Source: Haloarcula halobia (GTDB lineage: Archaea; Halobacteriota; Halobacteria; Halobacteriales; Haloarculaceae). From it: a stretch of DNA of 64,000 nt. The notes beneath the pieces were generated by a model, which was not told where the DNA came from, searched no databases, and was given only the letters and a program-made list of their open reading frames with translations. Made by a program: the position numbers and the translations under genes. The DNA lies in NCBI RefSeq assembly GCF_029338255.1, contig NZ_CP119787.1:186001-250000 (forward strand). The letters are read 5' to 3'. Shown piece by piece: positions 56,868 through 62,325 of this stretch; within the stretch, counting starts at the first letter, position 1; each line of letters starts with the position of its first letter.

Positions 56868-58604
56868 TTACGACAGCGCGTCGAGCCGGAACTCGAAGGC
56901 CGCCACCGGCAGTTCCAGGTCGTGTTCGACGAGCACCCGTGGGTGAACCTCGCCGACGACGCCGGCGGACTCGCCGTCCAGCACCACCTCGGCCGCCCGG
57001 CCGTCGATGAACGACGGGTGGGTGGTCGGCGGCGTCTCCAGTTTCGTGTCGAAGGCCCCGGCGAGGGCCTGCAGGCGGGCCTTCGCGTCCTCGTAGGAGG
57101 CGTCGGTGCGTGCGAGCGCCCCGGCTACGGTCCGGTGCTCGGCGACGCCGGTGTTCTCCGAGTCGTCGAGCCCCGCCGCGAGGCCGATCTCGGCGAGGTC
57201 CTGCGGGTAGCGCCGGTGGGTGTTGTTCTCTAAGACCATCAGCAGCGAGGGGAGTGCCCAGGTCCGGAGGATAGTGTAGTCCTCGCTGTACGGTTCCTGG
57301 ATGGTGACGGGGTCGGCGGCCCCCACGCAGTCGTCGTCGGGGGAGACGCCCATGCGAGTGAAGTTCTCCGCCTCGTCTGTCATGTGGAAGTTCAGCAGGT
57401 CCTCGAAGCCAAGGCCAACCAGCGCGTCGCGAGCGGCGTCCTCGAGGCGCGAGCGCTCGTGGCGGCCGCCGACCGTCGAGACGTCGGGGTAGGTCGGTTC
57501 GAGCGTGTTGAACCCCAGCGCCCGGCCCACGTCGTCGACGAGGTCCAGCGGGTGGAGCACGTCGACGCGGTAGGGCGGAATCTCGACCTCGAAGGCGACG
57601 CCGCCGTCCTCGGTCTCGACCGCTTCGGCGTCGAGGCCGGCCCGCTCGGCGTAGTCGACGACCTGCTCTGGGTCCAGGTCGACGCCGATGATAGACCGGA
57701 CGCGGTCCAGCGTCACCGTCTTCGAGCGCACCGAGAGGTCCGGGCGCTCGAGCGTGCTGCCGGCGTGCTCGCCGGGGGCGTCGTCGGCGTACTCGACTTC
57801 GACGCGTTCGACCTGGCCGCCACGCGCCTCGAGTGCGTAGCAGACGATGTTGCACATGTGGTCGATGGTCCACTGGTCGGTCCCGGTCATCTCGATGAAC
57901 AGGTCCCGGGAGTCCTCGCTGACCTCGGTCCGGCGGCCGTTGATGACCGGCGGGAACGAGAACAGGCCGATGGAGTCGTAGATGGCGGGCACTCGGTCGA
58001 ATTCCGCCACGAGGTCGCCGTAGGTCCGGCCCGTCTCGTGGTCCTCGATGACCTCGGCCGGCGTCATCTCCGCGTCCGAGTCCAGCGGGACGAACGTCTC
58101 GCCGTCGGGGTCGACTCCGGTGTAGCGGATCGACTTCCCGGAGCCCTCGACGGCGGCCTCGCCTTTCAGCATCGTCAGGTCGTGGACGCCGATGGCGCCT
58201 TTCGCGCGCTTGCGCCCCATCGTCGCGTGCAGTTTCTCCTGCAGCTGGATGAGAGATTCCAGGGCGTCTTCGCCCATATCGAGGCCGCGAACGATGGCAC
58301 CCGTGACGTACGGTCGTTCCTCGGGCTGGTCCTCGACCTCGATGGTCCACTCGGCGGTGTTCGTGTTCGGGACGTACACCCCGCGGTCGTCGCCGTAGTG
58401 GTAGCGCAGCGACCGGGCGACCCCCTCCACGGAGAGGCGGTCCAGGCGGTCGGGCGCGAACTCCAGCTGGAACTCGTCGTCCTCGGTCCAGCCCTCGAAC
58501 TCCAGCCCGAGGTCGAAGAGGTCCGATTTCAGCTGGTCGTCATCCTTCTCGTCGTGACCGGTCAGGTAGCGCAGTTCGTCGGGGTCGACGTCGACGACGG
58601 GCAT
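56868..58604 (-). CDS. pheT: Phenylalanyl-tRNA synthetase beta subunit
   Basis: A 578-residue beta chain of the short archaeal/eukaryotic type. It starts MPVVDVDPDELRYLTGH, has the B3/B4 editing region (IRGxDMG-like, VIDGR; DLFIEMTGTDQWTID) and the B5 domain, and ends with the catalytic-like domain and REEF-type tail (AAFEFRLDALS). Its ATG shares one base with the pheS TGA (58604), so the two subunits are made in coupled fashion. The enzyme charges tRNA-Phe as an (alpha-beta)2 tetramer. Expression may be set by the leader upstream of pheS. Confidence 0.96.
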   Translation of the reverse strand: MPVVDVDPDELRYLTGHDEKDDDQLKSDLFDLGLEFEGWTEDDEFQLEFAPDRLDRLSVEGVARSLRYHYGDDRGVYVPNTNTAEWTIEVEDQPEERPYVTGAIVRGLDMGEDALESLIQLQEKLHATMGRKRAKGAIGVHDLTMLKGEAAVEGSGKSIRYTGVDPDGETFVPLDSDAEMTPAEVIEDHETGRTYGDLVAEFDRVPAIYDSIGLFSFPPVINGRRTEVSEDSRDLFIEMTGTDQWTIDHMCNIVCYALEARGGQVERVEVEYADDAPGEHAGSTLERPDLSVRSKTVTLDRVRSIIGVDLDPEQVVDYAERAGLDAEAVETEDGGVAFEVEIPPYRVDVLHPLDLVDDVGRALGFNTLEPTYPDVSTVGGRHERSRLEDAARDALVGLGFEDLLNFHMTDEAENFTRMGVSPDDDCVGAADPVTIQEPYSEDYTILRTWALPSLLMVLENNTHRRYPQDLAEIGLAAGLDDSENTGVAEHRTVAGALARTDASYEDAKARLQALAGAFDTKLETPPTTHPSFIDGRAAEVVLDGESAGVVGEVHPRVLVEHDLELPVAAFEFRLDALS

Positions 58605-60115
58605 CAGTGCATCACCTCCGTCTCCCGCAGGAGGTCAAGGTCACACAGCGTCCCGTGGACGTCGCGGATGTCCTCGAAGCCGTACATCAGCATCAGGAGA
58701 CGCTCCAGCGAGAGGCCCCACGCCATCACGTCACAGTCGACGCCAAGCGGCGCTAACACCTCGTCGCGGAAGATGCCGGAGTTGCCGACCTCCACGATCT
58801 CGCCGGTCTCGGGGTGGGTCCCGAACAGCTCGAAACTCGGCTCCGTGTAGGGGTTGTAGTGGGGCTTAAACTCCAGGTCGGTGATGCCGAACTGCTCGTA
58901 GAACTCGGTGAACGTCCCCATCAAATCGCGAACGGAGAGGTCCTCGGCCATCACCCAGCCCTCGATCTGGAAGAACTCCAGCAGGTGGGTCGGGTCCAGC
59001 GTGTCGTTGCGGTAGACCTTCTCGACGCTGAAGAACCGCTCGGGCGGTTCGAGCTCGCCGATCTCGTGGCCCGAGAGGTAGCGCATCGACAGCGAGGTGG
59101 TGTGGCCCCGCAGGTCCAGACCGCGGGCGACCTCCTCCTCCCACGGCGAGTGGTAGCCCTCGCCGTCGGGGCCGACGCCCTCCAGGTGGGCAGATTTGAC
59201 GCGCTCGACGAGGTCCTCGGGCAGCTCCTCGATCTCGTCGGGCGTCTCCAGGGCGAACTGGTCCCAGTGAGTCCGCGCGGGGTGGTCCTGGGGCATGAAC
59301 AGGCAGTCGTTGATCCAGAACTGCGCGTCGACGTGGGGCCCCTGCATCTCCTGGAAGCCCATGCCGACGAGGGTGTCCTTGACCCGGTTCGCGGTCTGTC
59401 GGAGGATGTGCTCCTTGCCGTGGGAGACCACCTCGGCGTCGGCCGCGACGTTGTACTCGGTGAACTCGACGTCCGCCCACTCGCCGCTGGTCAGCAGTTC
59501 CGGCGTGACCTGGTCGACGGTCGCTGCGACCTCGATGCCGGCCATCAGCTGGGTGACGCCGTCGTCGGTCAGCACGACGGAGCGGACCGTCGCCTCGCTG
59601 ACCTCGAGCAGCCCCCGGCGTTCCAGTTGCGAGAGCGCCTCGGTGTCGGCGTCCTCGACGCGGCCGTCGGCGACAGCTTCGAGCGCGAGCATCTCGGGGT
59701 CGTCCCCGGTGTCGGCGTCGGGGTCGGCGGTTATCTCGCCGCTGTCGATGTGCCCGTACCCCTTCCGGGCGTAGTTCGACAGCGCGATGTCGACGGCCGC
59801 GCCCTCCAGTCCCGAGGCACCGATGACCTGCCCCATCGACACCGGGTCCGCGTCGGCCCCGGCGTCCATCGCGGCCGCGTAGAGGTCCTGTTCGGGCAGA
59901 CTCTCACAGATATAGGACTCGCCCTCCTCGGTCAGTGCGTAGTGCTCGACAGTCTCCTCGGTGACGTCGAGCAGGCCGTCGGCCTCCAGTTCGAAGGCGG
60001 CGCGGGTGGCCGCCTCGGGCTTGAGGCCGGCCTCGTCGGCCACCTCGTCGATACCTCGCTGCTCCTGTGCGTCGGCGGCCTCGAGGACGGCCACCTGTGC
60101 CTGTGGTCGTTTCAT
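58604..60115 (-). CDS. pheS: Phenylalanyl-tRNA synthetase alpha subunit
   Basis: A 503-residue alpha chain. N-terminal winged-helix repeats of the archaeal/eukaryotic type (VAVLEAADAQEQRGIDEVAD) precede the class II catalytic core. Motif 2 is FFSVEKVYRNDTLDPTHLLE and motif 3 GLSLERLLMLMYGFED. ATG 60115 begins MKRPQAQVAVL. The 180 nt before it hold two strong hairpins and a short Phe-containing ORF, suggesting regulated read-through. It is followed with one-base overlap by pheT. Confidence 0.96.
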   Translation of the reverse strand: MKRPQAQVAVLEAADAQEQRGIDEVADEAGLKPEAATRAAFELEADGLLDVTEETVEHYALTEEGESYICESLPEQDLYAAAMDAGADADPVSMGQVIGASGLEGAAVDIALSNYARKGYGHIDSGEITADPDADTGDDPEMLALEAVADGRVEDADTEALSQLERRGLLEVSEATVRSVVLTDDGVTQLMAGIEVAATVDQVTPELLTSGEWADVEFTEYNVAADAEVVSHGKEHILRQTANRVKDTLVGMGFQEMQGPHVDAQFWINDCLFMPQDHPARTHWDQFALETPDEIEELPEDLVERVKSAHLEGVGPDGEGYHSPWEEEVARGLDLRGHTTSLSMRYLSGHEIGELEPPERFFSVEKVYRNDTLDPTHLLEFFQIEGWVMAEDLSVRDLMGTFTEFYEQFGITDLEFKPHYNPYTEPSFELFGTHPETGEIVEVGNSGIFRDEVLAPLGVDCDVMAWGLSLERLLMLMYGFEDIRDVHGTLCDLDLLRETEVMH

Positions 60116-60206
60116 AGCGTGTGTCGGTCGTTGTGAACATCACTGCGGGTCGCTCAGTTAACGGTTCTCACTTGGTCCTCGCGGGCCGTTCTCCCGCTCG
60201 GACATC

Positions 60207-60235
60207 CGAGGTCCCGTCGAGTGGGCGGGACCTCG
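60207..60235 (-). promoter_or_regulatory. Hairpin 2 of the pheS leader
   Basis: On the minus strand CGAGGTCCCG and CGGGACCTCG form a perfect 10-bp stem with a 9-nt loop, between the leader ORF and pheS. It is the strongest hairpin in the leader and a candidate attenuator or anti-attenuator stem. No T-run follows it. Confidence 0.5.
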
Positions 60236-60259
60236 CTCCCCTCGGAGGGTTTCGTCGGC

Positions 60260-60277
60260 GCCGACCGGTCGGTCGGC
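60260..60277 (-). promoter_or_regulatory. Hairpin 1 of the pheS leader
   Basis: GCCGACC and GGTCGGC form a 7-bp stem with a 4-nt loop, 17 nt after the stop of the leader ORF. A ribosome held at the Phe codons would be close enough to affect its folding. Confidence 0.45.
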
Positions 60278-60294
60278 CCCGAATCCACCACCCG

Positions 60295-60375
60295 TCAGGC
60301 AGCGACGAAGAAGCCGAACCCCGGACTGCGTGGCGACTGGCGCGCGACACCGGCACTGCGGGATTCGGATGCCAT
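60295..60375 (-). CDS. 26-residue leader peptide with Phe cluster upstream of pheS-pheT
   Basis: ATG 60375 opens a short frame reading MASESRSAGV then ARQSPRSPGFGFFVAA and TGA at 60295-60297. Three of 26 residues are Phe, all within four codons near the end (TTC GGC TTC TTC). TTTTA at 60400-60404 lies 27 nt before the ATG, exactly as for leaderless haloarchaeal genes, so this is probably the first thing translated on the pheS-pheT mRNA. This is the arrangement of the bacterial pheST leader peptide: low charged tRNA-Phe stalls the ribosome and changes the downstream RNA fold. Function is inferred, and the composition could be chance. Confidence 0.5.
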   Translation of the reverse strand: MASESRSAGVARQSPRSPGFGFFVAA

Positions 60376-60397
60376 GTGCGAACGGTTGTGACGGGGC

Positions 60398-60405
60398 AGT
60401 AAAAG
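60398..60405 (-). promoter_or_regulatory. TATA box of the pheS-pheT transcript
   Basis: Minus strand CTTTTACT, 27 nt before ATG 60375 and about 290 nt before pheS. It implies a leader RNA of about 260 nt, long for a haloarchaeal gene, since most are leaderless. Confidence 0.55.
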
Positions 60406-60470: not shown

Positions 60471-60510
60471 GAAACCCGCCAGAAAGTCCCCGGGCGCTTT
60501 CAGTCCACCC
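60471..60510 (-). repeat. Short copy of a GGGTGGACTGAAAG...CTTTCTGG repeat
   Basis: On the minus strand GGGTGGACTGAAAG is followed by CGCCCGGGGACTTTCTGGCGG. It has the same two ends as the longer plus-strand copy at 60534-60658 but lacks its middle. The two copies point away from each other and share a 14-bp perfect inverted repeat (60497-60510 and 60534-60547) separated by 23 nt. Confidence 0.65.
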
Positions 60511-60533
60511 AGGATAAATGACCAACCGGCTAC

Positions 60534-60658
60534 GGGTGGACTGAAAGGGGCGACGCGTTCGGCAAACCCGGACGACGCAAGCACTGGAGCGAACGGAGTG
60601 AGCGAAGCGCGCAGCGAGGCCCGGGAGTCGAACGCGTCGGGGCTTTCTGGCGGTTCGC
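60534..60658 (+). repeat. Long copy of the same repeat with a nested palindrome
   Basis: Plus strand GGGTGGACTGAAAGGGG at the left and GGGGCTTTCTGGCGG at the right. Inside are perfect 11-bp inverted arms CGACGCGTTCG (60551-60561) and CGAACGCGTCG (60629-60639), and the core contains GAGCGAACGGAGTGAGCGAA, a sequence I recall from many haloarchaeal intergenic repeats. It could fold into one long hairpin. The protein-like frame over it on the plus strand is basic and not a gene. Confidence 0.65.
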
Positions 60659-60702: not shown

Positions 60703-62325
60703 TTAGTCGCGTCGTCGGTCGGACTCGAGTTCGATGTCGAGTTCGTCGAGTTTCGCCGCCCACTCGTCGCGTTTCTCCTGGTGGTCCTCGAGGAACTCGC
60801 GCATGAGTTCGGCGGCCTGCTCCTTGCACCCGCCACAGAGGCGCTCGCCGCCGACACACTCCTCGTAGACCTCCGTAGCGAACTCGTCGTCGTCGCCCGA
60901 CAAGAGGTACGCGTATAGTTCGTAGACCGGGCACTCGTCGGCCTTCCCGCCCTTCTCACGCTGTTCCGCGGCGGTGGCCCGGCCGCCGGTGGTCGCCGAT
61001 TTGACCTTGTCGTAGCCGTCCTCGGGGTCGTCGAGCAGGGAGATGTGTGACGCCGGGATCGAGGAGGACATCTTCCCGCCGGTGAGGCCGGTCATGAAGC
61101 GGTGGTAGACCGAGGACGGCGGGAGGAAGCCGTACCCGCCGTTGTCGAGTTCGACCTCGCGGGCCAGGTCCGCGGCCTCGTCCTGCGAGAGGTCGAAGGC
61201 GTCGACGTGTTCGTCGTAGACGCGCTTCTCGCCGTCGACGGCCTCGACGAGCGCGTCGAAGGCGGCGTCGGTCGCGCGTCGGTCGAAGATGCGCGTCCGG
61301 GGCCGGATGGGTTCCTTCCCGGCGTTCTCCAGTTTCTCGACGGCAGACTCGCGGGCCTCGCCGGGTTCGAGGTCCTGCTCGCGCAGCCAGTCGGCGGCCT
61401 CGCCACAGCGGGGCCGGTCGGCGTCCTCGGCGTAGTCCGTCCGGGCGTTGTAGGCCTTCCGCAGCAGGCCGCGCTCGGCCGGGTTCGCCTCGAAGCTCGC
61501 GTACGCCTCGGTCACGCCGAAGTAGCGCATCCGGGCCGCGAGGTCCCGGACCAGGCGCATGTGGGGGTCCTGGTCGGGGCCGACGGGGATGACGGTCGGC
61601 TTGGGCTCGTCGAGTTGCGGGTAGAGGATGTCGGCCATCTGCGTGACGACCGACTGCATGTGCGAGACGTCCGTCTCGCCGTCGAAGTCGTAGATGGCCT
61701 GCAGCTCCGAGAAGTTGGCCTCGACACCCAGTTCGAACGCGAGGTCCTGGACCTCGCGGTTGGTCGACTGGCGGTAGAGTTCCCCCTCCTCGGGGTCGAA
61801 GCCCAGCGCGAGCAGCGAGAGGACGTAACTGCGGGTGTGCTCGTCGATCTCGGCCCACGAGAGGTCGCGGGCGGCGTGGGCCTCCAGATCGGCGATGAGG
61901 CCGTAGGCGTCCCCGCCCTGCTCCTGGTGCCAGATTATCTCGTCGAACACCATCTTGTGGCCGATGTGGGGGTCGCCGGTCGGCATGAACCCCGAGAGCG
62001 CGGCGAAGTCCTCGCCCTCGCGTATCGCGCGGGCGACCCGGTCGTAGTCACGGTGGCCGAAGATGACGCTCCGGCGCATCAGGTAGTGGGGGTTCGGGAC
62101 GCCCGGGAGGATGTCGTCGAAGGCCCCGATGCCGAACTGGTCGAACAGTTTGCGGTAGTCCGCGACGGTCGAGGAGCCCCAAGGGTCAAGCGCCACGTCG
62201 TCGGCACCGGCGGCGTCGGCGCCGCCGTCGGTCCGGAAGTCCTCCGACTCACGCCACGGCGCCCCCGACTGGCGGCGGTCCTCGGCGGGCGATGCGTCGT
62301 CGTGGGGCGCGTCGTGGTCGGTCAT
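60703..62325 (-). CDS. trpS: Tryptophanyl-tRNA synthetase
   Basis: A 540-residue class I synthetase of the archaeal/eukaryotic type. An acidic N-terminal extension precedes the HIGH motif (PTGDPHIGHKMVF). VIPVGPDQDPHMRLVRDLA lines the active site, and KMSSS (GGKMSSSIPASH) is the second signature. The C-terminal part ends with a Cys-containing helix (GGERLCGGCKEQ). ATG 62325 overlaps the endA stop (ATGA), so the two are translated together. It attaches Trp to tRNA-Trp. Confidence 0.95.
   Translation of the reverse strand: MTDHDAPHDDASPAEDRRQSGAPWRESEDFRTDGGADAAGADDVALDPWGSSTVADYRKLFDQFGIGAFDDILPGVPNPHYLMRRSVIFGHRDYDRVARAIREGEDFAALSGFMPTGDPHIGHKMVFDEIIWHQEQGGDAYGLIADLEAHAARDLSWAEIDEHTRSYVLSLLALGFDPEEGELYRQSTNREVQDLAFELGVEANFSELQAIYDFDGETDVSHMQSVVTQMADILYPQLDEPKPTVIPVGPDQDPHMRLVRDLAARMRYFGVTEAYASFEANPAERGLLRKAYNARTDYAEDADRPRCGEAADWLREQDLEPGEARESAVEKLENAGKEPIRPRTRIFDRRATDAAFDALVEAVDGEKRVYDEHVDAFDLSQDEAADLAREVELDNGGYGFLPPSSVYHRFMTGLTGGKMSSSIPASHISLLDDPEDGYDKVKSATTGGRATAAEQREKGGKADECPVYELYAYLLSGDDDEFATEVYEECVGGERLCGGCKEQAAELMREFLEDHQEKRDEWAAKLDELDIELESDRRRD

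Follow-up and report, generated by a model that had tools for sequence, protein, structure and literature searches.

A putative leader-peptide control region upstream of pheST in haloarchaea, with Trp, Arg, and Lys counterparts

Comparison of haloarchaeal genomes indicates that the pheST operon is very probably preceded by a control region acting in cis through a leader peptide and belonging to a set of at least four (Phe-pheST, Trp-trpS2, Arg-argG, and Lys-dapA). The best reading, which rests on sequence comparison and one published table, is that charged tRNA is sensed by the ribosome translating these leaders, with control in cis of the operon that follows; the output of this control is inferred. 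Since four amino acids are matched to four genes, the leaders are hard to explain except through sensing of the cognate aminoacyl-tRNA by the ribosome.

Locus, promoter, and reading frame of the Phe leader

The window analyzed here is the whole stretch of 64,000 nucleotides from Haloarcula halobia (contig NZ_CP119787.1, positions 186,001 to 250,000). On its minus strand, trpS (60703-62325) is followed, after a gap of 587 nt, by pheS (58604-60115), which encodes the alpha subunit of phenylalanine--tRNA ligase (NCBIfam NF003210 and TIGR00468, above cut-off), then by pheT (56868-58604), which encodes the archaeal beta subunit (NCBIfam TIGR00471, above cut-off). Downstream of trpS, a near-perfect inverted repeat (GCTTTCAGTCCACCC..GGGTGGACTGAAAGG; 60496-60555) gives a sub-threshold match to an Rfam CRISPR repeat (E 0.089) and is perhaps a trpS terminator or the remnant of a mobile element.

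Promoter P1 (60399-60412, minus strand; CACAACGCTTTTAC) consists of a BRE (CACAACG) and a TATA box (CTTTTAC), and the leader ATG (60375) lies ~29 nt past the start of the latter. Of 101 leaders, 95 have a TTTW-type box whose first base is at -29 or -30 relative to the leader ATG; the BRE is conserved as C.CAACG among the pheS leaders. This spacing is that of leaderless genes and thus fits a transcript starting at the leader AUG. The ORF itself (60295-60375, minus strand) has 26 codons, MASESRSAGVARQSPRSPGFGFFVAA then TGA, with GFGFFVAA at the C-terminus of the peptide; its regulatory Phe codons, 20, 22, and 23 (TTC GGC TTC TTC, 60307-60318, minus strand), are supported by Phe enrichment and by over-use of TTT after the first Phe. 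An earlier reading of the window from sequence only had proposed that a TATA box and a leaderless, Phe-rich ORF of 26 codons precede pheS-pheT. The features that it listed are all present, the short ORF is real, and the promoter spacing is conserved beyond the genus.

Published data for Haloferax volcanii bear on the transcription start. In that species, 97 transcripts carry 5'UTRs of 150-250 nt and 16 of these contain uORFs; the tabulated cases include a uORF of 26 aa within the long pheS 5'UTR (HVO_2948) and a 23-aa uORF before a tryptophan--tRNA ligase gene, the second TrpRS, whereas neither argG nor dapA appears in the table (PMC4983044, Table 2). The mapped start lies upstream of the pheS uORF and no additional start site is given at pheS itself (PMC4983044, Table 2), so that a start mapped downstream of the ORF, which would have refuted the proposal, is not what the table records. 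One genus in our comparison, g60, is taken to be Haloferax because the TrpRS gene of one member is 98% identical to that of H. larsenii. Its Phe leaders are mostly 26 aa or 28 aa long and end in GFGFFFLTA, several of the 26-aa forms have a pI of 5.9, close to the published values, and the lengths of its Phe and Trp leaders match those of the tabulated uORFs (26 aa and 23 aa; PMC4983044).

We compared 142 distinct Phe leaders from Halobacteriales, with a consensus of about MASESHRAGVARQP..PGFGFFFA* (M-A-S/P-E-S/P-(H)...GFGFFFA-stop). The ORF was found at 27 of the 28 Haloarcula-genus loci with a readable upstream region; at the exception (L027) the leader is intact and CTG replaces ATG, a natural start-codon variant. 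A further 23 of 30 genomes sampled across the order carry the leader, which occurs in most sampled Halobacteriales families and in named members of Halorussus, Natrialba, Natrinema, Haladaptatus, Halorientalis, Natronomonas, Salinibaculum, Halogranum, Halopenitus, and further genera. Among the genomes compared, it is lost or unrecognizable upstream of pheS in several scattered lineages.

Several features point to the reading frame as the selected property. Phe accounts for 41% of the last nine residues in frame across the 142 leaders and for 9-10% in the other two frames. The distance between the two pairing segments within the ORF (see below) is divisible by three in 121 of 122 leaders, a rule that holds with inserts of up to about 60 nt, while the stop-to-pheS distance follows no such rule (54, 47, and 41 leaders in the three frame classes). 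Within the genus, codons 18-26 show a diversity of 0.236 at third positions against 0.077 and 0.081 at the others. The frame thus appears to be under selection, consistent with translation. The peptide changes more freely: in L121 and L125 its sequence is altered with RNA pairing retained, e.g. the SES/GFG codon pair of L121 became ERA/AFE, so selection acts on the frame and the Phe codons more strongly than on the sequence of the peptide. In L064, L085, and L088, long and partly repeated in-frame inserts lie between the pairing arms. Conservation well outside the genus extends to the ORF with its frame and Phe codons, to the promoter spacing, and to the hairpin after the stop codon, which excludes chance; loss of the frame and the Phe codons in relatives would have refuted the sequence-only reading, and close and distant relatives keep both.

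Hairpins within and beyond the leader ORF

The strongest structure of the leader, which the sequence-only reading did not list, is a helix of 9-10 bp within the ORF (hairpin 1). Its 5' arm (CCGAATCCC..., codons 3-6, CCGAAYCC; 60359-60368, minus strand) pairs with its 3' arm (GGGGTTCGG..., the Gly-Phe-Gly codons, GGRTTCGG; 60314-60323, minus strand). The arms occur as TCC/GGA (30), TCC/GGG (31), and CCC/GGG (26), and the combination CCC/GGA was not seen (0). Pairing is kept in 92% of the cells compared (61 distinct arm pairs), against at most 62% in slid controls, and both sides have changed in 42 cells, while no slid control exceeded 8. Located in the 3' arm of the stem, the first Phe codon is invariably TTC (101 of 101 leaders).

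Hairpin 2 (60242-60294, minus strand) begins at or just after the leader stop, immediately after it in the window. It is made up of an outer stem that covaries, a conserved internal loop (GGAYY/RYGAA) in which GGA/GAA is almost fixed, and a variable inner stem. Both sides have changed in 90 cells, against at most 38 in slid controls. A covariance model of this hairpin (R1) has one significant match in this genome, the pheS leader itself, and in 73 of the 79 genomes for which the position of pheS is known its best match is on the pheS strand, 45-178 nt before the gene. Given the lack of a second convincing copy in this genome, the element is specific to pheST here. In other genomes, second good R1 matches away from pheS were noted (G128:C1:188871-188924, G164:C2:227455-227508, G144:C1:1591259-1591310, and G059:C1:2025285-2025337), several of them in one family (f17); they perhaps represent another Phe-related leader. 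Interpretation of hairpin 2 as a kink-turn or as the UGGN bulge of a T-box was rejected on inspection, as the loops are symmetrical and T/C variation precedes GGA.

Two leaders of one lineage (L123 and L196) keep the ORF, hairpin 1, and the Phe run without hairpin 2 and without the element near pheS described below; with only some 35 nt separating the leader from pheS, they are naturally minimal forms. At another locus (L071), the leader stop and hairpin 2 are separated by an insertion that carries long inverted repeats.

The sequence-only reading had placed a 7-bp hairpin 17 nt after the leader stop and a perfect 10-bp hairpin beyond it, and had proposed a check of whether both stems are conserved with compensatory changes. 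The 7-bp helix exists, not as a separate structure but as the inner helix of hairpin 2 (60294-60242), which covaries. The 10-bp hairpin (CGAGGTCCCG/CGGGACCTCG; 60207-60235, minus strand) is likewise present and perfect in the window but is lineage-specific: most relatives, including most Haloarcula, have only about 20 nt between hairpin 2 and the pheS-proximal element and lack it. On this comparative evidence, it probably stands outside the mechanism.

The pheS-proximal element, GAACCGTTAACTGAG (GGAACCGYTAAC(TGA); 60153-60167, minus strand), lies at about -36 to -54 of pheS and is conserved even in genomes without the leader; the copy here is the only exact match in this genome. It is possibly a weak second promoter (P2) or an operator.

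Terminators of H. volcanii have been described as T-stretches ending in C, sometimes with upstream hairpins (PMC7237163). Between the leader stop and pheS, no run of four or more T was found in any of the 142 leaders, where 3.3 would be expected, and no terminator-like site was found in that interval in the window, so a terminator, if there is one, is not of the T-stretch kind. Runs of five or more T are confined to the interior of the ORF, in 86 of the 142 leaders. We rejected these Phe-tract T-runs as a regulated terminator, because RNA polymerase passes those codons before a ribosome can read them. Neither arm of hairpin 1 is more complementary than expected to the first 60 nt past the stop (mean z of 0.14 and 0.23); a perfect match in the window, GGATTCGG, is not kept in relatives, and pairing of these arms with the post-stop region was discarded as a candidate. 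Hairpins 1 and 2 share no strand, and the either/or switch of bacteria is therefore absent. Scanning window and leader against Rfam gave no leader match at or above threshold, and none to a T-box family.

Trp, Arg, and Lys leaders and their codons

We scanned 2.05 Mb of this genome, leaving out 39% of the chromosome, for a promoter followed by a short ORF with a cluster of one residue. An Arg leader (MIVTSRRTAADASERSTTLLRLRRRALR) was found before argG and a Lys leader (MRRRLPVPVAGTAAGERVVSPPKRKHSF) before dapA. Other candidates, MKHIERRRWWA and MELLHTHPHVR among them, were set aside for want of a matching downstream gene. A Trp leader, usually with Trp-Arg-Trp, precedes the second TrpRS genes (trpS2, plasmid and chromosomal) at 33 of 34 loci. 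The Arg leader is present at 51 of 60 argG loci (30 of 30 in the genus and at least 21 of 30 across the order), with a short GGGCC..TA..GGCCC hairpin spanning the stop. The Lys leader, with ATG, is present at 25 of 30 dapA loci (10 of 10 in the genus and 15 of 20 across the order); the other five order-wide loci have the AAAAAACG stretch with apparently non-ATG start codons. Several of the loci L401-L404, L410-L412, L415, L420, and L424 have, between the Arg leader and argG, another box resembling a canonical promoter (GAATTTAA...) close to the gene, suggesting tandem promoters there.

A hairpin involving early codons within the ORF exceeds the 95th percentile of shuffles in 126 of 142 Phe, 21 of 22 Trp, 26 of 51 Arg, and 18 of 25 Lys leaders; because the genomes and sequences are related, these counts overstate significance and are not probabilities. 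The frequency of the cognate residue over the whole peptide is 14.6% for F, 10.3% for W, 24.6% for R, and 7.9% for K, each in its own family, and with the exception of Arg, non-cognate regulatory residues are nearly absent from the four families.

The regulatory codons for Arg, Phe, and Lys are biased to less-used synonyms. Relative to a background of five genes of this genome, CGA makes up 164 of 270 regulatory Arg codons (61%) against 13 of 138 (9%), TTT 123 of 522 Phe codons (24%) against 2 of 76 (3%), and AAA 37 of 52 Lys codons (71%) against 16 of 50 (32%). Among Phe codons after the first, 44 of 138 are TTT, where about 6 would be expected from pheS. The T enrichment of the Phe tract may reflect this choice of less-used codons, as with CGA and AAA.

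Possible mechanism and comparison with known systems

The observed geometry can be combined with inferred events into a model. Transcription would start at the leader AUG; for H. volcanii this rests on a mapped start that gives a long 5'UTR with the 26-aa uORF (PMC4983044), and elsewhere it is inferred from the TATA spacing. A ribosome loading on the leaderless AUG would open hairpin 1, and this hairpin together with the U-rich Phe tract may pause RNA polymerase until the ribosome arrives. The GGA of the hairpin-2 loop ends 4-18 nt past the stop, mostly 10-11 nt; assuming the usual footprint size, we infer that it lies within the span of a ribosome at the stop and largely outside that of one stalled on the first Phe codons. 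With ample Phe-tRNA, a ribosome at the stop would thus cover the 5' arm of hairpin 2, at most about 18 nt away, while with scarce Phe-tRNA, a ribosome stalled on the Phe codons would cover the 3' arm of hairpin 1 and leave hairpin 2 free. Starvation is expected to yield more synthetase, and from this sign alone we infer that folded hairpin 2 is the permissive state, allowing read-through into pheST, and that the other state leads to premature loss of the transcript. A bolder reading, in which we place somewhat less than even confidence, is that haloarchaea have a network of ribosome-sensing leaders over at least Phe, Trp, Arg, and Lys genes whose switch differs from that of bacteria: ribosome position, on the cognate codons or at the stop, would select which of two independent hairpins folds, and archaeal machinery, e.g. 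aCPSF1/FttA in factor-dependent termination, would make the output in place of alternative terminator hairpins.

Charged-tRNA sensing could also feed an output other than termination: stalled ribosomes might shield the 5' end from a 5' exonuclease, or the folded leader might alter the access of ribosomes to pheS. The missing T-stretch terminator, the two hairpins that are not mutually exclusive by sequence, and the position of hairpin 1 close to the 5' end of a leaderless ORF all agree with control of mRNA stability or translation. However, stop-to-gene distance and sequence vary so widely that direct translational coupling is unlikely, and stability alone would not require the conserved internal loop of hairpin 2; we regard this output as possible and rather unlikely. 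It is much harder to credit that the leader is an independent gene for a small protein or small RNA, with pheS transcribed from a separate promoter at the GGAACCGYTAAC element. That element does resemble a BRE with a weak TATA box and is kept where the leader is lost, and several families have an additional canonical promoter near argG, but cognate residues recur in four unrelated operons, the peptide varies while its RNA pairing is kept (L121 and L125), and the H. volcanii table gives no start at pheS to go with such a promoter (PMC4983044). Hardest of all to sustain is a role for RNA structure alone (T-box-like, a riboswitch, or a PheRS-binding element), with the ORF incidental. Two covarying hairpins and a strongly conserved GGA/GAA loop would be natural for such an element, whereas spacing in multiples of three, variability at third positions, and Phe enrichment in a single frame would not; Rfam offers no match at or above threshold in the leader, and the Trp, Arg, and Lys counterparts differ in RNA sequence.

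A sensor of cognate aminoacyl-tRNA is by far the best reading, although control of termination by RNA folding has not been demonstrated. The charged-tRNA-sensing leader that the sequence-only reading inferred gains support from the conserved frame and Phe codons, from the H. volcanii start as tabulated (PMC4983044), and from the Trp, Arg, and Lys counterparts. That table gives the same uORF lengths and, within what it presents, is silent on Phe or Trp codons, conservation, RNA structure, and attenuation (PMC4983044). We found no case of leader-peptide attenuation in archaea in the open-access literature searched; reports in subscription journals could have been missed. If the four cognate leaders of this one archaeal order hold true, archaea would sense the supply of aminoacyl-tRNA through coupled transcription and translation. 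As haloarchaea are genetically tractable, the step from ribosome position to a decision on transcription or stability is directly testable, and the combination of a promoter, a leaderless ORF, a run of cognate codons, and a post-stop hairpin suggests a simple rule for finding more leaders.

In bacteria, attenuation by a leader peptide is textbook knowledge; pheM and pheL, the leaders of E. coli pheST and pheA, respectively, are ribosome-mediated attenuators of this type. The haloarchaeal leader resembles them in its short ORF before synthetase genes with a run of cognate codons near the stop, in RNA hairpins that overlap and follow the ORF, and in a codon choice suited to sensing tRNA charging. 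It differs in having a TATA/BRE promoter and a leaderless AUG, one hairpin wholly inside the ORF, and conserved hairpins that share no strand, with no hairpin-plus-U-tract terminator before the gene. Among the hallmarks of bacterial attenuators, a cluster of codons specifying the amino acid to which the downstream pathway relates is thus found in the Phe, Trp, Arg, and Lys leaders, whereas mutually exclusive hairpins sharing a strand (hairpin-1 arms against the post-stop region) and an intrinsic terminator of hairpin and T-run (142 leaders and the window) are not. On the sensor side, the comparative evidence suggests that the pheST leader works like an attenuator; as the terminator/antiterminator design is not met, we do not class it as one of the bacterial type.

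T-box leaders, too, precede bacterial aminoacyl-tRNA synthetase genes. The haloarchaeal leader shares with them a structured 5' leader before a synthetase operon and a presumed response to tRNA charging. Unlike a T-box, and without any Rfam match to one, it would sense not by binding tRNA directly but through the codons of a reading frame.
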